From an uncultured Planctomycetaceae bacterium (lineage in GTDB: Bacteria > Planctomycetota > Planctomycetia > Planctomycetales > Planctomycetaceae), in contig CAIOKE010000283.1 in NCBI GenBank assembly GCA_903858815.1, positions 1 to 64,000 on the forward strand: DNA of 64,000 nucleotides, written 5' to 3'. The notes under the pieces are model-generated. The model saw only the letters and a list, made by a program, of their open reading frames with translations, made no database searches and was not told the DNA's origin. Position numbers and translations under genes: made by a program. Of the stretch, positions 9,863 to 64,000 are shown in pieces. Position 1 is the first letter of the stretch. Every line of letters begins with the position of its first letter.

Positions 9863-10326
9863 TATCGCAGCCCGCAGGCAGAACCTAAACGAAACAATCG
9901 CTCCACAGGACCGCTTGGTTTCGTGGGTAATGACAAGGCTTCAGCCCGGGCAACTCACGACCCGGATCCCGCACGAAATTCTGTGTCGCTATTCCTCGAG
10001 CGTCGGAACTACAACGGCTGTTCCATCTGCCAGTACGGCACTTCTGGTTCAGCGGTTCGCTTCAGCAGTCCGCGATGCCTGTCCACTGGCAGTCGCAGCG
10101 GAGGGACTGGTGTCTGCTGTCTAGAGCGTAGCCGGACAAGTCCTCAAAGGAGACACAGTCCAGGGGATTCGTGAAAAAGTCGCTATGGTGATCGCCGCCG
10201 TCGACTTCACGACGATCGTCGATGCTGTCGGACATTTCCTGAGACCACTGGCGGAGGCCCTTTGGCAAGGGCGGTGAATTCATGTCGAGACAAGGACTGT
10301 TACGGAGAGCGACGAGGAATGTCGGG

Positions 10327-12267
10327 CTACTTTGCCTTCGTATCAAACGGCTTCAAGCCATCCGCCTCTGACTTGACCTTCGTCGTCAGCAGCAGTTTTT
10401 TACCAACCTCATCGACCACCAGCACCAGTGGATCACGCTCTTTGGCATAGTTCTGCAGAATCCGATCAATCGCTTCAAGAGCTGTCACGCTGCCCAGATC
10501 CATTGTCTGTGGCATATTCTGAGTGAAGCCAGCTCCCTTCAGCGCGTCACCGTCAATCGTCACGTCGGTCTTGATCGATTCACCGATATAACCAAAGGCC
10601 TCCTGCAGCGGAGTCCTGCGGAAGTCGACAAGGACTTTGAGCTTCAGCCGATCGGCAATCTTTTCGGGAATCTTTCCATCATCAGCGGCCTTTGTCTGGC
10701 GCGATTCGTCCCGGAAGACCGTAACCAGAGACTGATTCCAGGTCAGCAGCGTACCGGCCGCCAGATTGCCAGCCGCCTGGCGTGGCAGGATTGTGACAAG
10801 GCGAGCAAAGCCGGCGCCCGCATGCACTGTCGTACCGACATTCAGAGCTTGCAGCATCGCCGGGAATCGCCCGATGATTTCACGGCTGCCCACAGTTGAC
10901 GGCTGCATCTGCCGAACCATACCAAGAATCTCACCGGGCAGACCATCCAGCTGAACCTGCATCTGCCGCTGCAGGCGTACGGGTGTACTGTCACGACTGT
11001 TGCTGAGCAGTGTCTCCATGTAGAAGTCAGGCTCCAGATGCAGACTCCACAGCACACATTCCACCTGATCACCGAACCAGAACAGCACTTTGTCGGCCGT
11101 CTGCTGCAGCTGCGGGAAGAAAGCATCTTCACGATGCGAATCCAGCAGTGTCAGGTCAAACAGCACCGTCATGTGCCGCTGACGATCTGATTTCAGCAAC
11201 AGAGGTTCCATGTCCGGTAATGGCAGAGCCTGTCCTTCCTTGAAGTCGGCCAGTTCTTCAGACATGGTCAGTGGTGCGGCCACGAAGGTCTGCTGATCGA
11301 CCAGCAGGAAGGCAAAGTCTGAGGCCTCATAGACCTCCGCTTTTGAATTGGCATCCGGTCGCAGACGACCGGCAAATCGCTTCAGCAGATCCGAAGCGGT
11401 CTGTCGTTCCTTCAGGCGTACCACCATGGCAACATCGGGCAGTGCCATGCGGGCCCCAAAATTCAGCGCTATGGTCAGTTCATCAATCTCAGCAGGCTCA
11501 AATCTTGAAATCTGGCTGATCTGCTCTGTTAACCAGATTCCAAGGTTTCCCAGCAGTGCCTGAAATTCACCCATCGTCTCGTTTTTCTGCCACAGCAGTG
11601 ATGGACGCAGATGAACGATGACATGGGGCGTAAACGGAATATGGTCGAGTGGAACCGGGGAACCTTTCGTGGGACTTAGTTCTTCGGCCGCCACGTTCGA
11701 TGCCTCACGCTCCTTCTGCTCCTGTTCCCAGCCCTTATTCTGACGAACAACGGGTTTTTCGACAGGTGCGGCACCGCGACCGGCCATTACAGCATACACA
11801 GTAATGCCGGCAGCCAGCAGCCCGGCTGCGGCCAGTGAAATCCACTGAGCCATTCCGCTGCTGCGCCGGCGACGACGTACGCTGGACAATGTTGATGGTC
11901 GATCGACAGTCGGTGAATCCTGCGATCCTGTCACCGGCATCGCACCAAAATCCGGCAGGCTTTCAAGTCCCTGCAGGTCTGCCGTCAGAGCCTTCACAGG
12001 GCCAGCAGCTGGTTCAGCAGCAGACGGAGTATCCGGGACCCAGCGTGCCGCACGCCCTGTCCGCGGAGCCAACGGCAGAACGGGCAGCTCGTCCGAGGCT
12101 GTCGCAGCCGGTTGCGGTGGAGCCATTGGAGCCATTGGAGCTGCCGGCAACTGGATCACAAACTTATGACTGCATTTCGGACATCTTGCGGTCTTACCCA
12201 CCAGACGAGTATCGGGCAATTTCAGCAATGCGCTGCAGGCGGGACACGGGACAGCAATGGCGGACAT
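10327..12267 (-). CDS. MJ0042-type zinc-ribbon membrane protein, otherwise uncharacterised
   Basis: N-terminal CPACSALLKLPDTRLVGKTARCPKCSHKF zinc ribbon, one TM segment (WISLAAAGLLAAGITVYAVMAG), long extracytoplasmic part, C-terminal secretin/STN-like segment (FRRTPLQEAFGYIGESIKTDVTIDGDALK). Confidence 0.75.
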   Translation of the reverse strand: MSAIAVPCPACSALLKLPDTRLVGKTARCPKCSHKFVIQLPAAPMAPMAPPQPAATASDELPVLPLAPRTGRAARWVPDTPSAAEPAAGPVKALTADLQGLESLPDFGAMPVTGSQDSPTVDRPSTLSSVRRRRRSSGMAQWISLAAAGLLAAGITVYAVMAGRGAAPVEKPVVRQNKGWEQEQKEREASNVAAEELSPTKGSPVPLDHIPFTPHVIVHLRPSLLWQKNETMGEFQALLGNLGIWLTEQISQISRFEPAEIDELTIALNFGARMALPDVAMVVRLKERQTASDLLKRFAGRLRPDANSKAEVYEASDFAFLLVDQQTFVAAPLTMSEELADFKEGQALPLPDMEPLLLKSDRQRHMTVLFDLTLLDSHREDAFFPQLQQTADKVLFWFGDQVECVLWSLHLEPDFYMETLLSNSRDSTPVRLQRQMQVQLDGLPGEILGMVRQMQPSTVGSREIIGRFPAMLQALNVGTTVHAGAGFARLVTILPRQAAGNLAAGTLLTWNQSLVTVFRDESRQTKAADDGKIPEKIADRLKLKVLVDFRRTPLQEAFGYIGESIKTDVTIDGDALKGAGFTQNMPQTMDLGSVTALEAIDRILQNYAKERDPLVLVVDEVGKKLLLTTKVKSEADGLKPFDTKAK

Positions 12268-12468
12268 GTCGAAGACTCCGGTTTTGAAAAACCCGCCTTC
12301 AGTCTATCGGGTTGCAGACCGGAAAAAAACAAAAACCGGACGAAAAACGGTCGGCCCGCCCGTGTTTTCGGCGGAAGTTCCTGTGCACTGTTCGATTGCC
12401 TCAGCATCGCATTAGACTGTCACGTTCTGGTCCACTGATTTTGGCTGTTCCCCTGGAAAACCTGACTT

Positions 12469-13470
12469 ATGGCACTTCCTGTTGTCGTTATTCCTGCCGA
12501 CTTCCCTCCGCTCGTTTCCCGCTCACCACTGTTGCCCCTGCTGGATCGACTGGCTGACGTTCGCCTGCATCTCGATCGCCCACAATCGGCAGCGGCACAG
12601 ATCGAGCGGATTGCAGAGGCCGATATCGTGCTGAATTCGCGCGGCAGTCTCAGCTTTCCACAAACCATTCTGCAGTCTCTTCCCCGTCTGAAGATGGTGG
12701 CCGTCTGCGGAATCGGCTATGACTCTATCCACCTCCCGACCGCCACACAGCAGGGCATCGTGGTGTGTAATATCCCTGGCCGTACAGCTCCGATTGTCGC
12801 GGAACATGCGCTCGCCCTGCTGCTGGCCACGGCTCGTCGTATGGCGTGGATGACAGCCGAGCTTCGCAGCGGCCGCTGGCCTGGTGATCTCAGTCTGTCA
12901 CTGGCCGGGCGACAGCTGGGAGTCATTGGTACCGGGCACATTGGCTGTGAGATGCTGCGACTGGCTCGCGCGATTGGAATGCAGACTGTCGCATGGTCGC
13001 TGCACCCTGATCAGGCCAAAGCGGAAAAATTCAACTTCCGCTACGTCAGTCTCCCGGAACTACTGCAGACATCTGACGCCGTCAGCCTGCATACGCGCCT
13101 GTCTGACCAGACTCGCCACCTGCTGAACGCCGAACGACTGGCCCTGATGAAACCGACGGCCGTTCTGATTAACACGGCCCGCGGTGCCATCGTCGATTCT
13201 GCTGCACTGGCCGAGGCCCTGCAGAAGCGTCAACTATTCGCTGCCGGTCTTGATGTGTACGAACAGGAACCGCTGCCTGCAGATCACCCGCTGCTGGCCT
13301 GCGAACAGGTGGTACTCACACCGCATTCCGCTGACATGACTCAGGCTGGCGTTGATCTGCTGACTCAGGGCTGCATCGACAACATCGAAGCATTTCTGCA
13401 GGGGAGGCCACAGAATGTCGTCAATCCGGATGTCCTGTCGTTTCCGCAGTCACCCACTGATACGTTATAA
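12469..13470 (+). CDS. D-isomer-specific 2-hydroxyacid dehydrogenase
   Basis: LGVIGTGHIGCEMLRLARAIGM NAD-binding motif, INTARGAIVDSAALAEAL, LDVYEQEPLPADHPL, HSADMT. Confidence 0.9.
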   Translation: MALPVVVIPADFPPLVSRSPLLPLLDRLADVRLHLDRPQSAAAQIERIAEADIVLNSRGSLSFPQTILQSLPRLKMVAVCGIGYDSIHLPTATQQGIVVCNIPGRTAPIVAEHALALLLATARRMAWMTAELRSGRWPGDLSLSLAGRQLGVIGTGHIGCEMLRLARAIGMQTVAWSLHPDQAKAEKFNFRYVSLPELLQTSDAVSLHTRLSDQTRHLLNAERLALMKPTAVLINTARGAIVDSAALAEALQKRQLFAAGLDVYEQEPLPADHPLLACEQVVLTPHSADMTQAGVDLLTQGCIDNIEAFLQGRPQNVVNPDVLSFPQSPTDTL

Positions 13471-13529
13471 AACCGGCTTGTCAGCATACCCTGCTCCTGT
13501 CAGCCCCGCAGAACGCCGGAACCCAGCTG

Positions 13530-14783
13530 ATGCGTTATCTGATTCTTGCATTGTTCTTTCTGATGGCCGGCATTGCCTATGTACAACGGGCGGCGATCAG
13601 TGTCCCGGCCAGTCAGGTCGCAAGCGATCTGCAGATCACTCACTTCGAAGAATCCATGGGGTTTGTGCAGTCGGCATGGTATCTGGGCTATGCCTTGCTG
13701 CAGATTCCGGCTGGGCGTCTGGCAGACCGCTGGGGTTGCCGTCGCTCGATCGTTCTGTACTGCCTGCTGTGGTCACTGGCGACTGCCACTACGGGATTTG
13801 GCAGCGGACTGTGGTCACTTTCAGGTTCGTGGTTCCTGATGGGTGCGTTGCAGGCTGGCGCATTTCCCTGCGCTGCGCTGGCGATCGCGCAGATCTTTCC
13901 AGTTTCCGAAAGGGCGCGAGCCTCCGGAATCCTCGCAGCCGGTATGACAGTCGGAGCTGCAGCAGCTCCAGCGATCGTTGCCAGACTGCTGGGTGTGCTG
14001 CAGCCAGCGGCCACTTCCACGGGCTTTTTCGTATGGCAACTGTCACTGTTTCTGATGGCTGTCCCGGGAATTCTGTGGTGTTTTCTGTTTGTGGGGCTTG
14101 TTCCTGAATCAAAACTTCCCGTCCGACCTTCTGCACAAAGCACCCTGCCCTTTCGACTGATGCTGCGTCGCATGCTCGCCAGTAAGTCGCTGGCACTGCT
14201 CTGTGCTCAGCAGTTTCTGCGGGCTGCCGGTATGGTGTTTTTCGTCTCATGGTTCCCATCCTTCCTGCAGAAAACCCGCAGTGTTGATCTGAAAACTTCA
14301 GCAGACCTGAGTTCGTGGGTGGGCATCGGAGGTGTTATCGGTAGTCTCACCGGGGGCCTGGCTTCAGACCTGCTGCTGCAGCTGACGGGTAATCGCCGAC
14401 TGGCACGCCAGGGACTGGCAGTCAGTGGCATGCTGCTCTGCAGTCTGCTGATGCTGGCTTCCATGAAAGTTGCAGATATCCGTATTGCGATTTTCCTGAT
14501 TACTGCGGGCGTCTTCTGCGCGACATTTGGGGGCGTGAGCGGCTACACCGTGGCGATCGAATTCGGAGGTCAGCAGACGGCCACAGTCTTCAGCATGATG
14601 AACATGGTCGGAAATTTCGGAGCGATGCTGTTTCCGCTCGTTTCCGGCTGGTTGACTGCCCGCTTCAATAACTGGAATCTGATGATTCTGCTGTTCGCCG
14701 GTATCATGGCCGTGGATGCCGTTTGCTGGGCAATGCTGAACCCTCGCACACAACTGTTTCCTGATCCTCCTGAAGACTCCTGA
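13530..14783 (+). CDS. MFS transporter (ACS-like)
   Basis: 12-TM-like profile, GRLADRWGCRRS motif A. Confidence 0.88.
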   Translation: MRYLILALFFLMAGIAYVQRAAISVPASQVASDLQITHFEESMGFVQSAWYLGYALLQIPAGRLADRWGCRRSIVLYCLLWSLATATTGFGSGLWSLSGSWFLMGALQAGAFPCAALAIAQIFPVSERARASGILAAGMTVGAAAAPAIVARLLGVLQPAATSTGFFVWQLSLFLMAVPGILWCFLFVGLVPESKLPVRPSAQSTLPFRLMLRRMLASKSLALLCAQQFLRAAGMVFFVSWFPSFLQKTRSVDLKTSADLSSWVGIGGVIGSLTGGLASDLLLQLTGNRRLARQGLAVSGMLLCSLLMLASMKVADIRIAIFLITAGVFCATFGGVSGYTVAIEFGGQQTATVFSMMNMVGNFGAMLFPLVSGWLTARFNNWNLMILLFAGIMAVDAVCWAMLNPRTQLFPDPPEDS

Positions 14784-47390: not shown

Positions 47391-47642
47391 GGTTTGGCCG
47401 GATTCCCGCCGTCATACCCGAATTACGGGAACCAGCCGCAGGTGAACTGCGTCTGTAGCTTCAGCAGAGCAGGACAAACAGCCCCGCCCTGTGCCGACAG
47501 ATCAAAGACAATTCACGGACCAAATCAAGCTGTGTCACACTGTTTTGCCACTGTTTTTGCCAACCGGCAGACAGAACCAACGCATCTTCTCGCGATAGAT
47601 TCGTGACTTGTGTACTCTACGGGTTCCAAATTCTGCTGATTG

Positions 47643-50600
47643 ATGACTCAAGGACTGCAGGTCATGCGTGGATTTCTGACAGTGCTCGTACTGCTGCTCA
47701 GTAGTGCCCCTCTGATGGCGACTCCGCAGGAGCCCACCGACAAACGAACTTCGGCGGACGCAGAAATGCAGAAAAATAACTTCGCGGATGCTTTGAAGAC
47801 CTATCAGGAACTTCTGCAGGGACCGCAGGGCAGCAAACATGATCTGCTGCAGGCCGTGCAGTGTCTGCAATCTCTTGGCAGGATCAAAGAAGTTGATCGG
47901 CTGATCGAAGACGCCGTTGCGGCACATCCACAGCGGTTCGAAATCCTGCAGGCTGCCGCCGAAGGCTACCAGTCAGCAGAGGATTTCGGCTTTCTGATCG
48001 CCGGCCGGTTTGAGCGTGGCGGTCATCGAGGGGGCGGGGAAATGGCATCCGTCGAGGCTCGTGATCGAATTCGCTCACTGCAATTACTGCTGCAGGCTTT
48101 AAAGGCTGCGGAAACTGATCCCACCATTTCGGCCGAGCAGAAGGCCGCGACTTGGATGGCCATTGCTGACCAAATCGGTTCCGCTCGCTACTCCAGTGCC
48201 TGGAAACTGCAGCTGCTGTCTGATCTGACGAATCTGCCGGAACCGGAACAGGGAGTTTCCCCATGGATGGCTCGCGGTGCAAATCCGACTTCCAGTGCAG
48301 CCCCCGTGGATGAGCAGGGGCAGCCGGTCTTCCACCAGCTGCCAAAGTCCTGGGAGGCCGCCGTTTCGGACGGAGAACGCTGGCGCCGAGCAATGCACGA
48401 AGCCGCTCTCCTGAATCCGGGCGTGCTCAGTTCAACACAGCTGGCCTTTGCCGAATTCCTGCAGAATCAATTCGGCGCGGGTACCGTCGGAAATCTCTCA
48501 ACCGAACCCATCCAGCCACAGTCCGAGACTCAGACAGACACGAAAAAATTCTCACGACTTTCACTGCAGGACAACGAAACGCTGGCTCGACTGGCCAACG
48601 GCATACAGCGTTTCGAACTGCCCGACGAATTCAATTTCCTGAAAATCGCCCATAGCCTCATCGAACGCAATGATGAAACTGCCAACCAGGCCTTTGAACT
48701 GCTGATCCGCGAACACATGAATCGCACCCAGTATCCGCAGGCGGCAAAACTGCTCAAGGAAAAACTGGAAGTGACGCCTGCCCCCGAAGCAGACAATCTG
48801 CGCAGTCGCATCCAGCAGATTGAAGGCAACTGGATGCAGTTCCTCACCGCAGAAACTCTGCCCGCTGCCGGTCAGGCCAGCTTTGACATTCGCTATCGCA
48901 ATGGTCGAAAGGTCAAGTTCACAGCGACACCTGTGAATGTCGATCTGCTGCTGGATGACCTCCGAAAATACCTCGCCTCAAATCCCGCGGAATTCGATTA
49001 TCGTCGTACTCAGCTCCCGGAGATCGGATGGCAGTTGATCGAGAACAGCGGGAAAAAATATCTCGCCGACAATACCATCGAATGGTCGATTGATCTGACA
49101 CCACCCGCCGGACATTTCGATGAAACTCGCTCCATCAAAGCGCCCCTGCCAAAGGCCGGGGCATGGTGGGTGCAGGCCCGGATGCAGGATGGCAACAACA
49201 CTCGCATGGTCCTGTGGCTCGCCGATCTCGCTATCGTTGAAAAACAGACCGAAGCCGGCACGCTCGTGTTCGTCGCTGATGCAGTCACTGGTGCTCCCGT
49301 CCCACGAACCGATCTGCAGTTCTTCGGCTGGGAATTCCAGTACCAGGGTCAGCGTCCCCGCATCGAAATCCGCCGTTTTGCGGATCGCACTGATGCCAAT
49401 GGACTGTGCATCCCACAATTCAATCTGCAGCTGCTCCAGTCACAATGGCTGATCACAGCAAAGTCGCCCGATGGTCGCTCTGCCTTCAGCGGATTCAGCA
49501 GCCTCTGGGCCCCCCGTAGTATCGAACCCCTCGCGTGGAGCCCGCTGAAGGTCTACGCAATCACAGATCGCCCTGTTTATCGCCCCGGTCACAACGTGAA
49601 CTACAGCCTCTGGATCAGACGTCCACAGTTCTCAGGTGATCAGAATGAATGGGCCGATCAACCCGTCTGGATTCAGATCCGCAATCCGCGTGGCGAAGTC
49701 GTGTCCGAACAACAGCAACAGACGGATGGTCGCGGCACCGTCGCAGGACTGTACCAACTGCCTGCCGACGCTCTGCTTGGTGGCTGGTCTGTCGTGGTAT
49801 CAGGCAACACCACAATTGTCCGACAGATCGAGGAAAATGGCCGAGTTCGCGAGGTCACGGAAACTGTTCGACAGGAACTGGGTGGCGGCAGCTTTGCTGT
49901 TGAGGAATACCGCAAGCCGGAATTCGAAGTCACTGTCCAGGCCCCGGAAAAACCTGTCCAGCTGGGCCAAAAATTCACCACCACTGTTCACGCCGATTAT
50001 TATTTCGGAGCACCCGTCGCTGGTGCACGCCTGCACTACCGCATCGAAAGAAAGAAACAGCAGGAACGCTGGTTCCCCGCAGCTCGCTGGGACTGGCTCT
50101 ACACTCAGGGATACTGGTGGTACACCAGTGACTACTCGTGGTACCCCGGATTTCAGAATTGGGGCTGTCTGCCACCCATCCGACCATGGTGGAACTGGAA
50201 CCCCGATCCACCAGAGATCGTCAGCGAGGGAGATGCACTCCTCAATTCCGATGGCACCTTCCGTCTGGAAATCGACTCCGCCATGGCACTCGCCAGCCAC
50301 GGAGATTCCGATCACATTTACGAAATCACTGCTGAAGTTATCGATCAATCTCGTCGTAAAGTCAGCGGGACCGGCAGCGTTATAGCCGCTCGCAACCCCT
50401 TCCAGGTGTTTGCCTGGATGAATCGCGGTCACTATCAGACAGGTGATGCAGCCACACTGCATTTCCAGGCTCGAACCCCGGATGGTCAGCCCGTTGCCGG
50501 TACTGCCCAACTTCGGTTGCTGTCAGTCTCATGGGATCAGAATCAGCAACCGGTTGAGCAGGAGGTTCAGAGCTGGCAGGCGACGACAGCAGCCGACGGA

Positions 50601-53600
50601 AGCGGCAGCCTGCGTCTCAATCTACCCCAGTCCGGACAGTTCCGCGCCAGCGTGATGATCACTGATGCCGCCGGTCAACAGCAGGAAGGCGCCGTCGTGT
50701 TCTTCGTGCGCGGGCCAGCCGAAGATGGTCATAACTATCGCTTTAATAATCTTGAACTGACCGCAGACCAGCAGGAATATGCCGTGGGCGATACTGTGCG
50801 CCTGCAGGTCAGCACAGATCGGGCTGACAGTACTGTTCTGCTGTTTATTCGCGCCAGGGAGGGAAACTGCCCGGCCCCTCAGATCCTGAAACTTCAGGGA
50901 AAATCCACGGTTGTCGAAGTGCCGATTGCTGCTGAGGATCAGCCCAACTTCCATATCGAAGCCCTCACCATCTCGGCCGGAAAAGTTTATAGTGAAGTAC
51001 GGGAAATTGTGGTGCCTCCGGAGAACCGTGTTGCAGTCGTCGAAGTCAAACCTGCTGCCGAAAAATATCGTCCCGGACAACAGGCTCGACTGTCGCTCAA
51101 ACTCACAGATCTGAATGGTCAGCCGTTCACAGGCAACACCGTTGTCTCTGTCTTCGATGCCAGTCTCGAAGCCATCGCGGCTTCCAGTATTCCTGAAGTA
51201 CGGTCCTTTTTCTGGGACATTCGACGTTCACATTACCTGCAGATTCGCACCTCGCTGCAGCGCACTGGATCGCCGGTGCCACTCCCCGATGAAGTTTCAA
51301 TGAACTGGCTCGGGTTTCCAGATTCCCCGACAGGACTGAATTTCTCCTATGCTTCGTCTCGTTTCGGAATGCAGCCACGAGGAGGCGGTGGGGCATTCCT
51401 GCGGGGCATGATGGCCGAAGGTGCGCCTTCGGCAGCGATGGGCGTGCCTGCCGCAGAAGCTGGCGCTCCCATGGCCATGGCTGACGCCTTTATGGCCAAA
51501 GCAGCTCCGCAGGGCAATGAGTCCGCCACAACCCTGCGTTCTGAGTTTGCCGATACGGCTTTCTGGACAACCGCAGTCAATGCTGACGCCGATGGCACAG
51601 CAGAAATCTCCTTCAAAGTACCAGACAATCTGACCCGCTGGAAAATTCAGGTCTGGGCACTCGGAGACGGAACTCGTGTGGGATCCGGAGAAAGCCGGAT
51701 TGTGGCGGCAAAGGACCTGATGATTCGTCCGCAGCTTCCACGATTCCTGACAGAACGCGATCAGATTGTCCTCTCCGCTGTCATTAACAACACCCTGAAG
51801 ACTGAGCAGTCCGTCCGGGTCGTCTTCGAACATGCCGATGGACTGCTGAAACTGAACAGCCCGGCGGAGCAGACTGTACTGGTTCCCGCCGAAGGCAGTA
51901 CCCGCGTCGACTGGGTCGCCGCTGCCGTCGCTCCCGGAAAAGCCACGATTCGTATGTCGGCGTTTGCCGCAGGTGACTCGGACGCCACTGAAATCCATGT
52001 ACCTGTGAATGTCTACGGATTACTCAAAACCGACAGCTTCACCGGTATCGTTCGACCGAGTGATGCTGCTGGTTCCATCACCGTCACAGTTCCCGAGCAG
52101 CGAAATCCGGAACAGTCTCGCCTTGAAGTGCGATTCAGTCCCAGCCTCGCCGCAGCCCTCGTGGATTCACTGCCATATCTGATTGAATATCCGTATGGCT
52201 GCACGGAACAAACGCTGAATCGCTTCCTGCCCGCTGTCCTCGTACAACGGACACTGCAGAAAATGAATATCAGCCTTGAACTGGCACAGCAGCAGCAGAT
52301 CATGCTCAATTCAGGACGTACCTGGCTTGGCAAGTATCCGCAGCACTGGGGGCAACCGCCCGAGATTCAGACTCGGGATATCCGCCCACTGCCGGCCGGC
52401 TTCGGTATGGGCAGCAGTACGCTGGCCAAATGGATTCAGCAGCATCTTGACGAGGATCAAAAGTCGGCTCGTGGCCTGCCCGGGACATTCAACCCGGTTT
52501 TCAGTGACCAGCAGCTGAATGTTATTGTCCGTGCCGGTGTCAATCGCCTGACAGAGATGCAGTTGAGCGACGGTGGCTGGGGCTGGTTTTCCGGCTCCGG
52601 CGAGTATTCGTCACCACATACCACGGCGCAGGTTGTCCATGGCCTGACAATCGCTGCTCAAAATGATGTGCCGATACTGCCTGACGTGATTCAGCGAGGA
52701 GTCCAGTGGCTGCAGCTCTGGCAGACCACTCAGCTGGAACTGCTGCGCGAGGGTGACCGACATCGTGCAGATCCGAATTACGACAGCAAACTCACATACC
52801 GGATGTCTGCAGACAACCTTGATGCATTCGTTGCTCTCGTGCTCAGCGAACACGGCACGGGAGATGTCGCAATCAGGGATTATCTGCTGCGAGATCGCGG
52901 ACAACTGACGGCTTACGGTCTGGCCCTCTGCGGACTTTATCTGCATCGCCTGCAGGATCTCCCCAATCGTGACCTCGTCATTCAGAACCTTAATCAGTTT
53001 CTGGTCCGCGATGTGGAAAATCAGACTGCCTGGCTGCAGCTCCCGGAACAGTTCAGCTGGTACTGGTACGGCAGCGAAAACGAGGCCATGGCAGCTTTTC
53101 TGCAGTTAAAACTGGCAGCCACTCCGCAGGACCCCGTACTGCCGGAACTGGTCAAGTACCTGCTGAATAATCGCCAGCACGGCTCACGCTGGAAAAGCAC
53201 ACGCGATACGGCCCTCGTCATTGAATCACTCGCCCGCTACATCGAAGCCACGGGTGAAGATTCGCCCGATATGACCGTTGAGGTCCTCATTGACGGACAA
53301 CTTCGCAAAACTGTACAGATCAACCGCGAAAATCTGTTTGGTTTCGATGGTCAGCTGGTACTCAGCGGAGCGGAACTGACGTCCGGACAGCATACTGTGG
53401 AAATTCGTCGTAACGGACGCGGTCCCGTGTATTTCAGCGCGTGGCTGACGAACTTTACAAAGGAACAGCAGATTGCCGCCGCTGGTCTGGAAGTTCGCGT
53501 GCAGCGAAACTTCTTCCGACTGGAACGCGATGACCAGCAGACAGACGTCCGCGGCAGTCGCGGACAGGCACTCAGCCAGCAGACCCTGAAATATCGCCGG

Positions 53601-53966
53601 ATTCCCATCGATGGACTCACGGAACTGCCGTCCGGAACGCTGGTTGAGGTCGAGCTGGTGCTGGACAGCCGCAACGATTACGAATACCTGCTGCTGGAAG
53701 ATCGGAAACCCAGTGGCTTTGAACCGGTGGATCAGCGCAGCGGGTATGTCTTCGACGGGCTGCGTGCCTATCGCGAATTCCGCGATGACCGCGTCAGCCT
53801 GTTCCTCAGCACACTCGCTCGTGGTCAGCACAGTATCAGTTACCAACTGCGAGCAGAAACGCCCGGGCAGGTGACAGCCCTTCCGGCCTCCGTCGAAGGC
53901 ATGTATGCACCGGAACTGGTCGGCAACAGTACCAGCCTGCGACTGAACACCGTGGAGCGCCCCTGA
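47643..53966 (+). CDS. Alpha-2-macroglobulin family protein, thioester-type, secreted
   Basis: MG2-like AITDRPVYRPGHNVNYSLWIR, A2M domain FWTTAVNADADGTAEISFKVPDNLTRWKIQVWAL, thioester motif PYGCTEQTLNRF at 52197-52211; hydrophobic leader. Confidence 0.93.
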   Translation: MTQGLQVMRGFLTVLVLLLSSAPLMATPQEPTDKRTSADAEMQKNNFADALKTYQELLQGPQGSKHDLLQAVQCLQSLGRIKEVDRLIEDAVAAHPQRFEILQAAAEGYQSAEDFGFLIAGRFERGGHRGGGEMASVEARDRIRSLQLLLQALKAAETDPTISAEQKAATWMAIADQIGSARYSSAWKLQLLSDLTNLPEPEQGVSPWMARGANPTSSAAPVDEQGQPVFHQLPKSWEAAVSDGERWRRAMHEAALLNPGVLSSTQLAFAEFLQNQFGAGTVGNLSTEPIQPQSETQTDTKKFSRLSLQDNETLARLANGIQRFELPDEFNFLKIAHSLIERNDETANQAFELLIREHMNRTQYPQAAKLLKEKLEVTPAPEADNLRSRIQQIEGNWMQFLTAETLPAAGQASFDIRYRNGRKVKFTATPVNVDLLLDDLRKYLASNPAEFDYRRTQLPEIGWQLIENSGKKYLADNTIEWSIDLTPPAGHFDETRSIKAPLPKAGAWWVQARMQDGNNTRMVLWLADLAIVEKQTEAGTLVFVADAVTGAPVPRTDLQFFGWEFQYQGQRPRIEIRRFADRTDANGLCIPQFNLQLLQSQWLITAKSPDGRSAFSGFSSLWAPRSIEPLAWSPLKVYAITDRPVYRPGHNVNYSLWIRRPQFSGDQNEWADQPVWIQIRNPRGEVVSEQQQQTDGRGTVAGLYQLPADALLGGWSVVVSGNTTIVRQIEENGRVREVTETVRQELGGGSFAVEEYRKPEFEVTVQAPEKPVQLGQKFTTTVHADYYFGAPVAGARLHYRIERKKQQERWFPAARWDWLYTQGYWWYTSDYSWYPGFQNWGCLPPIRPWWNWNPDPPEIVSEGDALLNSDGTFRLEIDSAMALASHGDSDHIYEITAEVIDQSRRKVSGTGSVIAARNPFQVFAWMNRGHYQTGDAATLHFQARTPDGQPVAGTAQLRLLSVSWDQNQQPVEQEVQSWQATTAADGSGSLRLNLPQSGQFRASVMITDAAGQQQEGAVVFFVRGPAEDGHNYRFNNLELTADQQEYAVGDTVRLQVSTDRADSTVLLFIRAREGNCPAPQILKLQGKSTVVEVPIAAEDQPNFHIEALTISAGKVYSEVREIVVPPENRVAVVEVKPAAEKYRPGQQARLSLKLTDLNGQPFTGNTVVSVFDASLEAIAASSIPEVRSFFWDIRRSHYLQIRTSLQRTGSPVPLPDEVSMNWLGFPDSPTGLNFSYASSRFGMQPRGGGGAFLRGMMAEGAPSAAMGVPAAEAGAPMAMADAFMAKAAPQGNESATTLRSEFADTAFWTTAVNADADGTAEISFKVPDNLTRWKIQVWALGDGTRVGSGESRIVAAKDLMIRPQLPRFLTERDQIVLSAVINNTLKTEQSVRVVFEHADGLLKLNSPAEQTVLVPAEGSTRVDWVAAAVAPGKATIRMSAFAAGDSDATEIHVPVNVYGLLKTDSFTGIVRPSDAAGSITVTVPEQRNPEQSRLEVRFSPSLAAALVDSLPYLIEYPYGCTEQTLNRFLPAVLVQRTLQKMNISLELAQQQQIMLNSGRTWLGKYPQHWGQPPEIQTRDIRPLPAGFGMGSSTLAKWIQQHLDEDQKSARGLPGTFNPVFSDQQLNVIVRAGVNRLTEMQLSDGGWGWFSGSGEYSSPHTTAQVVHGLTIAAQNDVPILPDVIQRGVQWLQLWQTTQLELLREGDRHRADPNYDSKLTYRMSADNLDAFVALVLSEHGTGDVAIRDYLLRDRGQLTAYGLALCGLYLHRLQDLPNRDLVIQNLNQFLVRDVENQTAWLQLPEQFSWYWYGSENEAMAAFLQLKLAATPQDPVLPELVKYLLNNRQHGSRWKSTRDTALVIESLARYIEATGEDSPDMTVEVLIDGQLRKTVQINRENLFGFDGQLVLSGAELTSGQHTVEIRRNGRGPVYFSAWLTNFTKEQQIAAAGLEVRVQRNFFRLERDDQQTDVRGSRGQALSQQTLKYRRIPIDGLTELPSGTLVEVELVLDSRNDYEYLLLEDRKPSGFEPVDQRSGYVFDGLRAYREFRDDRVSLFLSTLARGQHSISYQLRAETPGQVTALPASVEGMYAPELVGNSTSLRLNTVERP

Positions 53967-55215: not shown

Positions 55216-58200
55216 ATGAAGCGTTTTGCCATTGCCCTGCAGCTGATAATGCTGCTCCTCGCAACGCAGCAGACAACTCTGACAGCCTCTGACTGGCCCA
55301 TGTGGCGTTTTGATGCCGGACGAACTGCTGCCGGAACCACCGAACTGCCCACTCAGCTGCAGCACAGCTGGACCATCAAAGCACCTGCTCGCATTCAGGC
55401 ATGGGATGATCCGCTGAATCTTGACCTGATGCCCTATGACCGCCTGTTTGAACCCATCGTGATCAGTAACCGACTGATTGTCCCTTTCAGTGATACCGAT
55501 CGAGTCTGTGCCTTTGATACTTCTACCGGACAGCAGCTCTGGTCCTTCGTCACCGATGGCCCCGTCAGACTGCCTCCCGCTGCCACGGCTCAGCATGTCT
55601 GCTTCGTCAGTGACGATGGCTGCCTGTACTGTGTCGATGTCGCCAGCGGTAAACTTCGCTGGAAGTTCCTCGCAGCGCCCGGTACACGTCGCATTGTGGG
55701 TAATCAAAGACTGATCTCCACGTGGCCAGCACGGGGTGGCGTCGTGATCCGGGATGGCGTCGTGTATTTTGCCGCCAGTATCTGGCCCATGATGGGTGTC
55801 TACATCGGCGCTGTGGAAGTGGAAAACGGCAGGTTGCTGTGGATCAATGATTCCACTGGCTCAACATGGATTAAACAGCCCCACAGCGCACCATCGTTCG
55901 CCGGAGTTGCTCCCCAGGGTGCACTTGTCGCCACAGCCGAATCACTGATTGTACCAGGTGGCAGGTCCGTGCCAGCTGTCTTCAATCGCAATAATGGTGA
56001 CCTGCGGTATTTTGAACTGAATGCTGGTGGTAAAGGAGTCGGTGGCTCACTTGTACTGGCCGATGATAAGTCCTTCTTTGTCCACACACGACTCCGCAGC
56101 GTACGTGAATTCACACTGGAAAACGGCACCAAATCCTTTTTTCAGTGCAATGAACCAGTGCTCCACGGCGACATGCTCTACGCCGCAGCCGATGCCGGTG
56201 GAAAAGCGGTTCTTCGTGCCCATGCGGCTGATCGCCGAGTCCTCTGGGAAACCCCGATGGATGCCTCCGGGGATCTGATCCTTGCCGGCCACTCGCTGTA
56301 CTCGGCCGGTGCTGCTGGAATTCAGCGACTGACCCTGCCGGACAATCCGCAGAAAGTCGTCCCCACCGCTCCGCCGACAGCCGAAGTCCTCATTCCGCCG
56401 ACCACAGTCACCGGCACAATTCAGCGATTACTGGCTGCTGATCAGAAACTCTTCGCCGTCACTGCTGAAGGAGAAATTCACGCCTTCACAGCGGCTCGCA
56501 ACACGACAACTCCCCTGCACGACCTTGTCACGCCGATACCTGTATCGCCCATGCCGGAAGAATCCGAAACGGCTGCTGCGGCGCTGCTGCAGAGCCTTCC
56601 TGCAGAAGGCTACGCACTCTGGTTCGGCACAGACGATCTCTCCCTCGTCTCGGCCGTTGCCTCACGCTCTCCCTTCGTGCAACTGGCCTGCATCGACGAA
56701 ACTGCCGAACGGATTGAATCTTTACGCCAGCGCTGGGATCTGCAGCGCATCTACGGGAAAGTCACTGCTCATCAGGCTCAACCTCACACCTTCCAGACAG
56801 CACCGTGGCTCGCCCATACCGTGGTGATCGGACGCGAACTGAGCTCCCGCATCGGTCAGGATCAGCAGCTACTCAACCACATCTGGCCCTCTGTTCGACC
56901 TTACGGCGGTGTCCTGCAGCTACTCTGCTCAGCCTCAGATGCCACCACAATCTCAGCAGCCATTGCAGCCAGGCCACCGGAACAGGCTCGCGTGGAAGTA
57001 AATTCGTTCGGGGTTCGCCTGACAAAAGCTGGTCCTCTGCCGAACTCGGCTGACTGGACACATCTGCATGGAAATATCGCCAACACGCGAAAATCTGATG
57101 ATGCGCGAGTTCGGTTGCCACTGGGTGTCCTCTGGTTCGGTGGCAGCAGTAACATGGATGTTCTGCCCCGCCACGGACATGGGCCAGGACAGCAGGTTGT
57201 GGATGGGCGCCTGTTTATTCAGGGAATCAACACCCTCAGTGCCCGCGATGTCTATACCGGCCGAGTACTCTGGAAACGCGATTTCAAAGATCTTGGAACC
57301 TACGACGTCTACTACGATGCAACCTACCGTGAAACGCCACTGGATCCCGCCTATAACCAGGTACATATTCCAGGTGCCAACGCCCGCGGCACCAACTACG
57401 TCGCTACTCCCGAACACGTCTACATTCTGGAAGGTGCCGTCTGTCGCGTTCTGGATCCCCGTAACGGTGACATTCTGCGGACTATTGAACTGCCTCAGGA
57501 GAATCCCGAGGAACCTCAGGAATGGAGCTATCTGGGAGTGTATCAGAACGTTCTGATCGGAGGATTGGGGTTTGCAGAATATCGCCAGCGACTGGAGATT
57601 TCATTCGAGGAGGAGGACGGGAAACTGGGTGGGAACAAAGCCGGCTTCGGCTCGAAAAGTCTTGACCGCGCGGGCAGTATGCTGCTGGTCGGCTTCGATC
57701 GATTCTCCGGCCGCCAGCTCTGGAAGATCCCCGCCCGACACAGTTTCTGGAACAACGGTGTCATCGCCGGCGGTGGACGTATTTACTGTCTTGATCGCAA
57801 CCCGAAGCAGGTCGAGGAAAAGCTGCAGAGACGCGGGATCTCCGCACCGTCCACCTACCGCATCCTTGCCCTGAATCCGCAGACGGGTGAAGAACTGTGG
57901 CAGAAGACTGATGGCGTATTCGGCACATGGCTGGGATATTCCGAACAACACGATCTGCTGCTGCAGGCTGGCGCTGCAGCCAGCGATCGCCTGTCAGGGG
58001 AACCCGATCGCGGCATGATGGTCTGTCGAGCCAATAATGGCGACGTCGTCTGGCATCAGCCGGACCTCGCCTATTCCGGCCCCTGCATCCTGCACAATGA
58101 CCTGATCATCGCCAACGCCAACTCTTACAAGGACTCTGCCGGCGCTTGGTTCCTCAAAACAGGGCAGCCATGGTTGATCATGAATCCACTGACCGGCGAA

Positions 58201-59085
58201 CAGTCACCATTCACTCTGAATCGGGCTTATGGCTGCAATACCATCCTCGCCAGCGAAAACTTTCTCACCTTCCGTTCAGGCGCAGCAGGCTTCTATGACC
58301 TCACGAATAATGGTGGCACCGGAAACTTCGGCGGCTTTCGCTCTGGCTGCTCCGGTAACCTTGTGGTCGCCAACGGAGTGTTGAATGCACCCGACTATAC
58401 GCGAACCTGCAGCTGCTCTTATCAGAATCAGACATCCCTCGCCCTCGTGCACATGCCGGAAGTCGAAACGTGGACGGTCAGCCCGCTGGCACGCCCTGAT
58501 GCACCACGCCTGCCCATCGCTGACCTTGGCATCAATTTTGGAGCCCCCGGACATCAGCGCGATAATCAGGGGACGCTGTGGATCGAATGGCCAGCAGTGG
58601 TAACCGACAATTCACCAGCTCATATCAGGACCAATCCCGAGGCCACCCCCTATAGACGACATTCTTCAGCCTATGCAGACAGCCGCAGCCCGTGGATCTA
58701 TGCTTCCGGACTGCAGAATATCCAGTGGCTGGAAATCGAAACCAGCATCGGAGGTGGCAAAGCCACAGCGCCGAAAGCCCCACGAGGAAAATCCGAAGAC
58801 TGTCAGCCCGACGAACAGAAAACCGATGCCACACACTGGAATCTGCAACTGTACTTTGCCGACCCACACTCACGCCTCGCCGTCACAGCTGCCGCTGCAC
58901 GCAGCTTTGATGTCCTGCTTAATGGCACCGTCGTTCTGCAGAACATGGAAATCCAGCCCGGTGGCACACTGCTGCAGGAAATCAATACCTCCACCCCAGA
59001 CGATGGACCCATCAGACTTGAGTTTCGAGCCACCAGCGGCCAACCCGTCATCTCCGGAATTCGACTGCAGCGCATCAATCCCTGA
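55216..59085 (+). CDS. PQQ-binding-like beta-propeller repeat protein, secreted
   Basis: Signal peptide; propeller blades such as VCAFDTSTGQQLWSFVTDG, LYCVDVASGKLRWKF, ILALNPQTGEELWQKTDG. Confidence 0.9.
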   Translation: MKRFAIALQLIMLLLATQQTTLTASDWPMWRFDAGRTAAGTTELPTQLQHSWTIKAPARIQAWDDPLNLDLMPYDRLFEPIVISNRLIVPFSDTDRVCAFDTSTGQQLWSFVTDGPVRLPPAATAQHVCFVSDDGCLYCVDVASGKLRWKFLAAPGTRRIVGNQRLISTWPARGGVVIRDGVVYFAASIWPMMGVYIGAVEVENGRLLWINDSTGSTWIKQPHSAPSFAGVAPQGALVATAESLIVPGGRSVPAVFNRNNGDLRYFELNAGGKGVGGSLVLADDKSFFVHTRLRSVREFTLENGTKSFFQCNEPVLHGDMLYAAADAGGKAVLRAHAADRRVLWETPMDASGDLILAGHSLYSAGAAGIQRLTLPDNPQKVVPTAPPTAEVLIPPTTVTGTIQRLLAADQKLFAVTAEGEIHAFTAARNTTTPLHDLVTPIPVSPMPEESETAAAALLQSLPAEGYALWFGTDDLSLVSAVASRSPFVQLACIDETAERIESLRQRWDLQRIYGKVTAHQAQPHTFQTAPWLAHTVVIGRELSSRIGQDQQLLNHIWPSVRPYGGVLQLLCSASDATTISAAIAARPPEQARVEVNSFGVRLTKAGPLPNSADWTHLHGNIANTRKSDDARVRLPLGVLWFGGSSNMDVLPRHGHGPGQQVVDGRLFIQGINTLSARDVYTGRVLWKRDFKDLGTYDVYYDATYRETPLDPAYNQVHIPGANARGTNYVATPEHVYILEGAVCRVLDPRNGDILRTIELPQENPEEPQEWSYLGVYQNVLIGGLGFAEYRQRLEISFEEEDGKLGGNKAGFGSKSLDRAGSMLLVGFDRFSGRQLWKIPARHSFWNNGVIAGGGRIYCLDRNPKQVEEKLQRRGISAPSTYRILALNPQTGEELWQKTDGVFGTWLGYSEQHDLLLQAGAAASDRLSGEPDRGMMVCRANNGDVVWHQPDLAYSGPCILHNDLIIANANSYKDSAGAWFLKTGQPWLIMNPLTGEQSPFTLNRAYGCNTILASENFLTFRSGAAGFYDLTNNGGTGNFGGFRSGCSGNLVVANGVLNAPDYTRTCSCSYQNQTSLALVHMPEVETWTVSPLARPDAPRLPIADLGINFGAPGHQRDNQGTLWIEWPAVVTDNSPAHIRTNPEATPYRRHSSAYADSRSPWIYASGLQNIQWLEIETSIGGGKATAPKAPRGKSEDCQPDEQKTDATHWNLQLYFADPHSRLAVTAAAARSFDVLLNGTVVLQNMEIQPGGTLLQEINTSTPDDGPIRLEFRATSGQPVISGIRLQRINP

Positions 59086-59137: not shown

Positions 59138-62100
59138 TTACTCCATCGACAACTTATACGTCCTGCAGACACGAAACCCTGATGTGATGCTCAGAGTATT
59201 CGGGGGAAAGCTCACACGACTGGCAGATCGAATACCAGAACCAAACGAGTTGAAGGCACCACCACGAGCGACTCGTGTGGTTGTATCCAGAATCGTCCGT
59301 GACAGCATATTGTCCGTGTCGCCGACCAATTCACCCACTGACAGATCAACAAGCAGTGGCGGAGACTGACACCACTCAATAGCGTTACCGTACATTTCGA
59401 ACAGACCAAAACCGTTAGGTCGCAAAGTACCCACTGGGACCATACCGCCTTCGCCGGAATTCCCGGCATACCGGGCATACTGATCCAGCAGGGATTCCCC
59501 GAATCCATAGAATCGTGACGTCAGTGTCCCGCTGCGACACGCAAATTCCCACTCGGCCTCAGTCGGAAGTCGGTAGCCCTGCAACTCAAGGCAATTGGGA
59601 CGCATTTTCATCCCACTTGCAAATACCTGCGCGGGTTCATAACACCACTGATCCTCGGGAAGTCCTTCGCTCCTGCTCAGCCAGTTGCAGAAATGGGCCG
59701 CGTCATACCAGGTGACAGTATTGACTGGAGCATCCTCAGTCTCCGAATAACGACGATTCGAATTATGACTGCTGAGGAACTGTCGAAACTGTGCGACCGT
59801 GATTTCCTGCATCCCGATCGCAAACGTTCGCTTGATTCCGCGACGATGCAACTGTTCCTGATCGGGGCGACTGACGGCCCCACCATACCGTCCGGCCTCG
59901 GCGATCGGTGAACCCATCAGAAACTCTGTTCCTGCATCGATTATTGACATGCTGATTCCCCCACTCCCCTCAGTGCCACCACCGGATTTTGTCACATACC
60001 AGCGTCGCCCCCCGATTGTCTCTCCTTTCGAAAACTCAGAACGTATCTGACGTATTTGCTCATCCGCTCCCAACTGTCGAAGGGACCACTCACACATCCC
60101 ATGTACCCCAGGATCGGGATCGCTGCTCAAACGATCGCAAAGTTCCGCGATAGCAGCAGCCTTGTCAGATTCCGTCAATAAGTTTCCAGCCGCCTGCTCC
60201 CCCAACGCCTGGATCAAAGAACGACGACTGCCAGCATCCTCTTCAGATCTCAGTCGTGCAATAACTTTTGCAGTATCCAGACTGTGGCTCCGAAGTTGAT
60301 CAAGCAGATAACTGCGAACACGCGGATCTGGATTATCCCGCAGCAGTGGCCAGACCGATACCGGAACCTGCAGACGCAGCAGCGTTGCAGCGGCAGCAGC
60401 CTGCTGCAATGCCAGCGACTCAAGCTGCGATTCGGGAATCAGTGGTCGCTGCAGCAGCACCACATGAATTGGTGTGGAATTGTCACTCGTTACACCAATT
60501 GCCAGTGGACGCCATGAGGCTTCCAACAGAAGTTGCACTTGCTGCATTGCCGCTTCAGTCGTACTTGCCTGAACGATTCGTGTTTCGAAAAGCGGGTCTG
60601 CTGACCAGACTCCGGCAAAACGTCTCGCTGGAATAAGTTGCTGAACGAGGGTCAGAAAGTGAGGGTTGTCATGAAGTTCTGCAAAATCAACACTCCGACG
60701 AAGTTCCGCGCCACTGGAAAAACCGGCATCGACGGCCCTCTGAAGTAACTCAATCGCTCGATTCTCAAATTCTACTGCCTCTGCTGACATCCCCTGCTTG
60801 CTGAATACACGGGCAGCCTGGGCGGCAGATCGCGCTGCCCCGTATAGACTATCCCTGTCCTGTGGATTAAGACCAACGAACGCATCCAGTTCAGAGACTG
60901 CACTCGCCACGTCTCGTCGCCACGCAGCGAAAAGAATTGATACATAGGCTGAAGTCACTTGCCCCTCAGCGCCCCCCTTCATCAGCGTCTGTACGTTGCC
61001 AGCCTCCTCCCATCGTTGAAGCTGAGCCAGTACCACGGCCAGGTACTGCAAAACTTCGGCACTCGGTGTTGAGAGATTCGCATTCAGCCACTCCAGATCC
61101 TCCAGCGCCTGCTCGGGCTGATCCGTCCAGTACTGCGCCACTGCCCGCTTCAGGCGAATCGCCGGTCGCTCCAATTGCTCTGACCCCAAAGCCTGAATCT
61201 CCACAAGCTGCTGGCGAAAACTGTCCCTCGGATCAGCCAGTGTCAGTGGCCCCGTCGTCACCGTTGTGAAGTCCCACTGAGGACGCCCGTGCAACTCCTC
61301 GCCTCCCCAATTAAGCAACGTCTGTGACGACGCCCCAATATTGGAAAATACGGCTGAGAATTCCGCGCCTCCCTCAACACTGCCCGCAGCAAAAATCGTA
61401 CGCTGGAATGCGAAGTTTTCTGCGGCAAGGCGCTTCTGCAGATCCTCAAACTGGTCAGATTTCGCCGCATAAACACAACGACGACGATCCTCTGAAGTCT
61501 GACCTTCACACCACAGCGTCAGCCACCCAGCGTGAGGACCTGTACCTGGAATCCACGACAAATCTTCCAGCAAAAGACCTTCACGCTCAGCATCGATCTC
61601 CGGTTTTGGCAGATCCTCAGCCTTCACATTCGCAGCAATCGCCCACTTGCGCCCGTCGCGAATCCACACGGCCGACATCTTCGGGTCATCTGTTACAACT
61701 CCTGTATGTGGACGCAGCCTGATTGGACGATAACCAGACGCTCGCAGAGACTCGCTTAACGGCAGCAGCCTTGAGAATGGAATCTCCAGACAAAACGCGA
61801 TGCGATCCCTGATTAATCCATGCGCAGCCTCTATTCCTGCACGGACCTCTGCGGGCGGACCTGGCCATGACGAAACCGTTGCCGCATCCCCCCATGCTGG
61901 ACTTACTGTCCTTTTCAGAATCTCCTCAAGGTTTCCAACTGCCGCATCCCGCAACGGATCCAACAGCGGAAAAATCAGCCTGTCGACGGCCGGTTCAGCA
62001 TTCAACAGCACCCTGATAAGGGTTGCAGCATCGTCTTTCGCATAATTCGCCAGATATACAGCAATCACCTGCCGGGCTGCACTATCCAGACTCGGATCAA

Positions 62101-64000
62101 AGTACAAATCGGCGAGTGGCCCCTTCAGCAGGTCCGACTGCGTGCGAAGAACATCGAGAAATTGCGAGGTTGCAATTGGATCCTGGACAACCAATTCCTT
62201 AGCGACAAGCTTTGCAGTCGCTGGATCAGACCAGGCAGCGCCTTCCTTAAACGGCGATTCCCACGCTCCCAGCAGGCAGGCCGCATGCAACCGTCGTTGT
62301 TGAGGCTCCATGTCGCTCTGCAGCGATTGCCGCAGCCGGTTGGTCAAATCACCAGACCACGGTCGCAAAAGATCGATCAAAGGCCTCAGCTGGTCAGGCC
62401 GACACTTCAGACTCAGCTCACAAATCACCGGCAGCAGTTCAGGATCTGTGTCACCCAGTTTCAGCCTTGCAACAGCCAGGTGCAGTTGAGCTTCAGAACC
62501 CGCCGCTGCGTCACCATACAAACGCTGCAACTCCGGCAAAGCGTACTTCTTTAATGACAGCAGCAGCTCCAGCCCACTGGCTAACTCACTGGTCTCTCGA
62601 TCACCAATCGTCGCCGCCAGTAAGCGCGCTCGATCTGCCGAATTCCGAGCCACTATCTGCACGGAAACAAGGAATATCACAACCGCCACACACATAACCC
62701 ACAAACCACGAATTCCATGCACGCGCCCGGCTCGCCACATCAACTGACGCTGCGATTCCGTCCAGCCCCGCGATTTCACATATCTGCGGATTCTCAAATA
62801 CTCCGGCAAAGTTGGAAGATGCCGATCCTCCCGACGAAACTGCCACAAACTTGTACGCTCCTCCAGCAATAACTCTGATCGTCCCTGCGCTGTTTCCAAT
62901 TGGCGACGACTGAGCCAGGCACGCAGGGCAGGAACCAGATCATCATGCGTCAAATGATAACACACCGCATCTGGACCCTGCTCTGACACTCGAACACTCT
63001 CTGTCGCTGTAATCAGCCGCAGCTCACTGTCAAGTATCCGAATCAGATCACTGAATTCGAGCGGACGATCAACGTAGCCGGAGACACTCCGAAGCTCCGC
63101 AAGCGTTCTCATTGCACCTTTGATTTCGGAGTCACATGGCGGAAGGAGGGATTTCAGAACATTTTTGACGGCAGGAGCATGCATGCGTAACCTAGCGTCA
63201 CTTCCAGCCTGACTGAAGGTCTCCTCCAGAAATGTCAAACCAATCCCACTCACACCACCAAGTTCCAGAAGGGTTTCGGGTACCCAGTCTCTGCCTCGCA
63301 TAAGCTCCGAAAAAATCGCCAAACGTACCGAGTTGACTCGGTTCCCGTCCGCCAGCCCAGCGACCACTGAATCAATAAATCTGCTCTGCTCTGGTGTCAG
63401 CTGACCCGCAGGTCCCGATAAGCCACCACAAGCCAACCCGAGTTTCTGTAACACGGTCTTCGCATGAGCAATACTGAATAAATCCACCATCGCACAGTTG
63501 TGCTGCTGCCGAATTGGCGTGTCGAGCTCATGCATCAATCGCGACACACTGACGATGAAGTCATCTCGAACCATCAGGACCGCCTGTAACCTCCCTCCAT
63601 CACACTGCCGCAGAGCACGCTCCAGCTCACTGCCCGTACTACTACCATCCCCGTGCAACCATTGCTCAAATTGGTCAATAAAAATCACAACCCTGGGACC
63701 CGGATTTCGCCGAATCGACGTGATCAACTCCACCAATCCGGTTTCCGCCGCAAGACCCGGCAGACGCTGCCGCAACGCAGTACATATCCTCGATTCCGTC
63801 TGGCCCCCGGCAGCTTCCACGTATACCGATACAACCTCGCTCGAGAGCAGGGGCATTACTCCGGCTCTCACCAGCGACGTTTTTCCACAACCACTGGGAC
63901 CATAAATCAGTCCCACAGAAAACGTTCTAGCTGCGTCGCGGTCTTCAATACGCTCCTTCCAGAAAAGAACACTGTCCGGAATACCATCCCGATCACGTGG
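59138..64000 (-). CDS. nSTAND NTPase - TM - HEAT/TPR-like - SUMF1 (FGE-sulfatase fold) protein; 5' part truncated by the window edge
   Basis: Walker A IYGPSGCGKTSLVRAGVMPLL, Walker B VVIFIDQFEQWL, TM segment LWVMCVAVVIFLVSVQIVA, C-terminal SUMF1 domain (AGTEFLMGSP...YRLPTEAEWEFACRSG...GLFEMYGNAIEWCQ...RVARGGAFNS...SGFRVCRT). The frame stays open from 63916 to the window edge (PRDRDGIPDSVLFWKERIEDRDAARTFSVGLIYG), so the listed ATG is internal. Confidence 0.9.
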   Translation of the reverse strand, partial: PRDRDGIPDSVLFWKERIEDRDAARTFSVGLIYGPSGCGKTSLVRAGVMPLLSSEVVSVYVEAAGGQTESRICTALRQRLPGLAAETGLVELITSIRRNPGPRVVIFIDQFEQWLHGDGSSTGSELERALRQCDGGRLQAVLMVRDDFIVSVSRLMHELDTPIRQQHNCAMVDLFSIAHAKTVLQKLGLACGGLSGPAGQLTPEQSRFIDSVVAGLADGNRVNSVRLAIFSELMRGRDWVPETLLELGGVSGIGLTFLEETFSQAGSDARLRMHAPAVKNVLKSLLPPCDSEIKGAMRTLAELRSVSGYVDRPLEFSDLIRILDSELRLITATESVRVSEQGPDAVCYHLTHDDLVPALRAWLSRRQLETAQGRSELLLEERTSLWQFRREDRHLPTLPEYLRIRRYVKSRGWTESQRQLMWRAGRVHGIRGLWVMCVAVVIFLVSVQIVARNSADRARLLAATIGDRETSELASGLELLLSLKKYALPELQRLYGDAAAGSEAQLHLAVARLKLGDTDPELLPVICELSLKCRPDQLRPLIDLLRPWSGDLTNRLRQSLQSDMEPQQRRLHAACLLGAWESPFKEGAAWSDPATAKLVAKELVVQDPIATSQFLDVLRTQSDLLKGPLADLYFDPSLDSAARQVIAVYLANYAKDDAATLIRVLLNAEPAVDRLIFPLLDPLRDAAVGNLEEILKRTVSPAWGDAATVSSWPGPPAEVRAGIEAAHGLIRDRIAFCLEIPFSRLLPLSESLRASGYRPIRLRPHTGVVTDDPKMSAVWIRDGRKWAIAANVKAEDLPKPEIDAEREGLLLEDLSWIPGTGPHAGWLTLWCEGQTSEDRRRCVYAAKSDQFEDLQKRLAAENFAFQRTIFAAGSVEGGAEFSAVFSNIGASSQTLLNWGGEELHGRPQWDFTTVTTGPLTLADPRDSFRQQLVEIQALGSEQLERPAIRLKRAVAQYWTDQPEQALEDLEWLNANLSTPSAEVLQYLAVVLAQLQRWEEAGNVQTLMKGGAEGQVTSAYVSILFAAWRRDVASAVSELDAFVGLNPQDRDSLYGAARSAAQAARVFSKQGMSAEAVEFENRAIELLQRAVDAGFSSGAELRRSVDFAELHDNPHFLTLVQQLIPARRFAGVWSADPLFETRIVQASTTEAAMQQVQLLLEASWRPLAIGVTSDNSTPIHVVLLQRPLIPESQLESLALQQAAAAATLLRLQVPVSVWPLLRDNPDPRVRSYLLDQLRSHSLDTAKVIARLRSEEDAGSRRSLIQALGEQAAGNLLTESDKAAAIAELCDRLSSDPDPGVHGMCEWSLRQLGADEQIRQIRSEFSKGETIGGRRWYVTKSGGGTEGSGGISMSIIDAGTEFLMGSPIAEAGRYGGAVSRPDQEQLHRRGIKRTFAIGMQEITVAQFRQFLSSHNSNRRYSETEDAPVNTVTWYDAAHFCNWLSRSEGLPEDQWCYEPAQVFASGMKMRPNCLELQGYRLPTEAEWEFACRSGTLTSRFYGFGESLLDQYARYAGNSGEGGMVPVGTLRPNGFGLFEMYGNAIEWCQSPPLLVDLSVGELVGDTDNMLSRTILDTTTRVARGGAFNSFGSGIRSASRVSFPPNTLSITSGFRVCRTYKLSME

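Follow-up and report, generated by a model that had tools for sequence, protein, structure and literature searches.

We describe a planctomycete gene that probably encodes a single-pass receptor Ser/Thr kinase (STK) in which a STAND NTPase, lying between the kinase domain and the membrane, acts as a gate. What the protein senses lies, most likely, outside the cell. Its architecture joins two published kinds of proteins, namely the STAND-FGS fusions and the periplasmic SUMF1 kinases, and is not a new class; a search of open-access literature recovered no study of exactly this combination.

Gene extent and domain architecture

The gene was encountered as a minus-strand ORF at positions 59138-64000 that is still open at the edge of the window, i.e. 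the stretch of DNA analyzed here, which covers the first 64000 bases (C283:1-64000) of a contig of 102470 bases (102 kb) from an uncultured Planctomycetaceae bacterium. When read past the window, the full gene occupies contig positions 59138-65362 (-) as a single ORF of 6225 bases coding for 2074 aa, of which the 3' 4863 bases lie inside the window and 1362 bases outside it. A previous sequence-only reading of the window had guessed that the missing 5' end might encode a Ser/Thr kinase, or alternatively a protease or death-like domain, and had suggested reading beyond position 64000; what lies there is an intact Ser/Thr kinase, and not a leader devoid of an effector. The Walker A and B motifs, membrane segment, helical repeats and SUMF1 domain described in that reading are likewise all present, as judged by motifs, hydropathy, AlphaFold models and Pfam matches (Table 1).

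The AlphaFold models, whose input alignments were restricted to window and locus proteins, have a mean pLDDT of 83.0 for residues 1-905 and 81.6 for residues 906-2074. In the model the part of the protein past the membrane comprises, in order, a helical arm, three beta-alpha-beta-beta units, a TPR-like region, a fourth such unit, a HEAT-like region and the SUMF1 domain. The BTRD1 model (PF17660) matches 8 of 22 ectodomains, with a best E-value of 1e-7, and reaches E 0.079 in the window protein. Homologs in many planctomycete genomes share these features while being mostly 30-48% identical, and such recurrence indicates that the architecture is not a product of chance.

Table 1. Features of the kinase-STAND-SUMF1 gene, with positions in the window and residues of the full-length protein
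Feature	Position	Strand	Residues	Basis or remarks
In-window gene portion	59138..64000	-		start codon, N-terminal helical region and kinase (residues 1-454) past window end
Helical N-terminal domain	past window end		2-123	AlphaFold model
Ser/Thr kinase	past window end		156-408	Pfam, E 1e-44
nSTAND1 module with conserved N-terminal linker and C-terminal helical/winged-helix part	62858..64000	-	about 455-835 inside window	Pfam PF20703 (residues 472-619, E 1e-14); alignment; AlphaFold model
Walker A, GPSGCGKTS	63875..63901	-	488-496	
Walker B, VVIFIDQFEQW	63659..63691	-	558-568	
Transmembrane helix	62648..62704	-	887-905	hydropathy 2.72; long helix in model
First helical-repeat (HEAT-like) arm	61916..62647	-	906-1149	all-helical in model, pLDDT mostly 85-95; Pfam match weak or none
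Three beta-alpha-beta-beta repeats, BTRD1-like	61343..61801	-	1188-1340	model
TPR-like helical region	60608..61273	-	1364-1585	model; consensus TPR proteins of PDB; NCBIfam TPR_END_plus, E 1e-5, below that model's cut-off
Fourth beta-alpha-beta-beta unit	60443..60589	-	1592-1640	model
Second HEAT-like region	60032..60433	-	1644-1777	PF13646 HEAT_2, E 0.007 (sub-threshold); helical in model
SUMF1/FGE-sulfatase-fold (C-type-lectin-like) domain	59153..59962	-	1801-2070	Pfam PF03781 (residues 1810-2066, E 3e-34)

A conserved core and a variable ectodomain

The window protein displays the catalytic Lys, HRD and DFG elements typical of Hanks-type Ser/Thr kinases, and the corresponding residues K185, E204, H277-R278-D279 and D298-F299-G300 are invariant in the 21 aligned family members. 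The same 21 members also retain, without exception, G488, G491, G493, K494 and S496 of Walker A and D563, Q564, E566, Q567 and W568 of Walker B, and the nSTAND1 Pfam score of 55 bits, against a cut-off of 27.1, identifies the module as a STAND NTPase at the sequence level. The nearest fold to the kinase domain in the PDB is that of PknB, a single-pass receptor kinase, and PknB/StkP are also nearest by sequence. These PASTA kinases have a comparable kinase-TM-ectodomain layout, but they bear PASTA repeats and no STAND module, whereas the window protein has HEAT and SUMF1 elements instead and scores 268.6 bits with the PASTA-kinase equivalog model, far below its 450-bit cut-off. Pairwise conservation is 44-49% across the kinase and STAND regions, as against 35% for the SUMF1 domain, 22% for the HEAT arm and 15% for the TM, which suggests that a fixed signaling core has been combined with a changing outside. 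A paralog in the same genome (C346; L061:2954-7945, 1663 aa) is a natural pseudokinase form, with a degenerate kinase domain having HRS in place of HRD and no DFG, along with intact Walker A and B motifs and a SUMF1 domain. The retention of the Walker motifs despite the loss of the HRD Asp and DFG indicates that the STAND part can persist without kinase activity.

Hydropathy analysis revealed one TM segment (Kyte-Doolittle mean 2.72, with the next-best segment at 1.40), and 21 members have a hydrophobic segment at the same position; in the subgroup typified by another paralog from this genome, C289, it is weak (0.75-1.5). The mean net charge falls from +2.8 ahead of the TM to +1.0 beyond it (21 members, which are non-independent; Wilcoxon p=0.002). 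Given this charge bias and the requirement of the kinase for ATP, we predict that the kinase and STAND modules lie inside the cell and the SUMF1 domain outside. With localization so predicted, the protein has the layout of a single-TM receptor STK, with an N-terminal kinase, one TM and a SUMF1 domain past it. This predicted topology agrees with a published survey of planctomycete kinases, according to which the SUMF1 domain is periplasmic in most single-TM forms (PMC11032199). The window protein resembles those kinases in having a PknB-like kinase inside, one TM and SUMF1 outside, and in belonging to the same phylum, but differs from them in possessing, between kinase and membrane, a STAND module as conserved as the kinase itself; STAND modules are not mentioned in the passages of the survey consulted here.

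The catalytic cysteines of FGE, which we take to occupy positions RGG+4 and RGG+9, are absent at both positions in all 22 aligned ectodomains, with Ser and Ile being present there in the window protein, and the domain hence does not qualify as an FGE. An ectodomain profile run against the PDB retrieved TvpA as the best match (E 8e-48), followed by PvdO (1e-35), PorK and FGE (1.5e-25), and Foldseek groups the SUMF1 domain with PvdO, TvpA and FGE. The earlier observation of a SUMF1 domain lacking the FGE cysteines thus extends to the entire alignment, whose profile is nearer to TvpA than to FGE. Likewise, the earlier idea of a membrane-anchored sensor gains support from the single span and the cysteine-less SUMF1 domain, with ligand binding remaining presumptive. 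TvpA of Treponema denticola (PDB 2y3c) shares the lectin-fold domain but, unlike the window protein, is a variable DGR target with neither kinase nor STAND. A different pair of cysteines, Cys1892 (21/21) and Cys1907 (19/21), is conserved and could be disulfide-bonded; such a bond would be consistent with an extracytoplasmic location.

Phyletic distribution and genomic context

Of 294 Planctomycetota genomes searched with a profile of the linker-STAND region, 13 contain the family, at up to 5 copies per genome, and the remaining ones gave no match at E 1e-40 or better. Seven of the 18 genomes of the window's genus have a strong match. A scan of 84,980 species yielded 21 loci, nearly all of them planctomycete-titled (one is labelled Kuenenia and one 'bacterium'), and every match recovered comes from a planctomycete-type genome. 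Branches are long in the tree of the STAND segment; orthologs of the C289 copy occur in two relatives, and the window gene is without a close ortholog.

An 8-base overlap (ATGTATGA) joins the start of the window gene to the stop of a MutS-like gene, and this neighbor was considered as an operon partner. It is present in 18/18 genomes of the genus, and in none of the other loci examined does the kinase gene adjoin MutS, suggesting that the overlap reflects position and not partnership. More generally, the family members have no conserved neighbor except within close lineages. The gene order in the window is MutS - kinase/STAND - PQQ - ThiF, that in the closest relatives is MutS - PD40 - SNF2 - PQQ - ThiF (assembled from two contigs each), and a single contig of the genome G003 has A2M-like - ThiF - three other genes - MutS. 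Comparison of these loci indicates that the window gene sits in a variable slot of an otherwise conserved block. Scans for promoters and repeats found nothing above chance. The large neighboring genes at window positions 47640-53966 and 55216-59085 resemble, by eye, alpha-2-macroglobulin and a PQQ-repeat protein respectively.

Related loci offer further observations. The C289 paralog (L005:5988-9944), which is shorter, overlaps its upstream gene (9934-10329) by 11 bases; the latter has a metallo-beta-lactamase fold, with a class II cAMP phosphodiesterase match in L081, and the pair is retained in two relatives (L081, L082). Elsewhere, kinase-STAND genes adjoin a kinase-less protein with two SUMF1 domains (L040:15819-18284) and a HEAT and SUMF1 protein resembling an ectodomain-only copy (L054:14202-16802). 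In L052, from a MAG labelled Planctomicrobium piriforme, the gene is divided between two overlapping frames (9887-11482 and 11013-14444), one with the kinase and the other with the STAND-SUMF1 part, a split that is a frameshift or an assembly error.

Alternative readings and a proposed mechanism

A role in biological conflicts, as put forward in the sequence-only reading, has also been proposed for STAND-FGS proteins (Kaur et al. 2021, PMC8195603). Applied to the window protein, it would imply that SUMF1 and the repeats recognize an invader molecule and that the kinase, as effector, triggers dormancy or death, which we regard as unlikely. The protein does combine STAND, FGS/SUMF1 and an N-terminal effector in one chain, and it shares with the published group a central nSTAND1, a C-terminal FGS/SUMF1 domain, several copies per genome and an S/T/Y kinase, which is among the N-terminal domains listed for that group (PMC8195603). 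Further, patchy multi-copy distribution, an accessory slot and long branches are usual for immune genes, but the patchiness equally suits niche-specific signaling. Unlike the STAND-FGS systems, the window protein has a TM, separating sensor from STAND, and a long HEAT/BTRD1/TPR arm between STAND and SUMF1, and no genomic link to defense genes, EAD, partner effector or DGR was found. There are no defense genes in the alternative cargo of the slot or in the neighborhoods of relatives; in relatives this slot encodes PD40, SNF2 helicase or AAA proteins, and we accordingly rejected a defense island. The PADLOC matches to PD-T4-6 and mad6 are accounted for by the kinase domain alone.

Elsewhere, DGRs target lectin domains of the FGE type carried by nSTAND1 proteins (Dore et al. 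2024, PMC10907252). Those diversified sensors resemble the window protein in combining nSTAND1 or NACHT with a C-terminal FGE-type lectin fold, and some are predicted to be periplasmic (PMC10907252). In contrast, the window gene has no DGR reverse transcriptase (RT) or template copy: within the genome assembly, which is 99.4% complete, the three RTs, judging by their ORFs and contexts, resemble group II intron, RT-Cas1 and retron types, and the last 283 bases of the gene have no second copy. DGR diversification was thus rejected for this genome. An arms race was rejected as well, since the SUMF1 dN/dS of 0.12-0.17 in three Stieleria orthologs, representing one lineage, points to purifying selection among these close orthologs. 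The retron-like RT (L064:4482-6068, contig C307) has 528 aa. The RT of contig C149 (L063:4807-7656), a 949-aa protein, is apparently fused to Cas1, has a RAMP/Cas6-like N-terminus and is encoded near RAMP-like and TIR-like proteins; by eye, except for an RVT_1 match, the locus may be a type III CRISPR system with spacer acquisition from RNA.

The conflict role is thus unproven, with nothing beyond patchiness pointing to defense: relatives show no defense neighborhood or conserved partner, there is no DGR and the Stieleria orthologs are under purifying selection. A lack of defense neighborhoods in relatives, which the earlier proposal had itself named as counting against it, is largely what we observed.

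We are more doubtful still about a transmembrane NLR-like receptor for immunity or self-recognition, in which the outside lectin fold would report phage adsorption or foreign cells and the STAND module would then fire the kinase, the reverse of cytoplasmic Avs sensing. It also seems rather improbable that the protein is an ordinary environmental STK with the TM only as anchor and the SUMF1 domain scaffolding cell-envelope proteins, the role that PorK/GldK has in the type IX secretion ring. The single TM could serve as nothing more than a tether, STK domains number in the dozens in this genome, several of them accompanied by SUMF1, and two close relatives retain the C289 copy at the same location. 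PorK is also one of the best structural relatives. Nevertheless, such a kinase leaves unexplained both the invariant STAND motifs and how very poorly the arm and TM are conserved. That SUMF1 is an active enzyme of the FGE, EgtB or PvdO type, regulated by the fusion, is highly improbable: the fold is the same and the best structural matches include PvdO and FGE, but none of the 22 ectodomains has the FGE cysteines and every NCBIfam enzyme model scores far below cut-off.

We favor the single-pass receptor kinase with a STAND gate. The C-terminal lectin-fold SUMF1 domain, borne on the helical-repeat arm and located either in the periplasm or on the cell surface, would bind a ligand, and the signal would pass through the TM helix to nSTAND1, which would leave its resting state and assemble into an ATP-bound oligomer. 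This oligomerization would cluster the kinase domains, allowing them to trans-phosphorylate each other and subsequently phosphorylate cytoplasmic targets. For the window protein we infer ligand binding, oligomerization and the direction of signaling. Because the family is a small one with clear limits, and some of its members come from cultured strains (e.g. Stieleria and Rhodopirellula), the model is directly testable. If the mechanism is true, a bacterial STAND switch would gate the signal that passes from a sensor outside the cell to a kinase inside it, and receptor kinases and NLR-like proteins would be joined in one chain.
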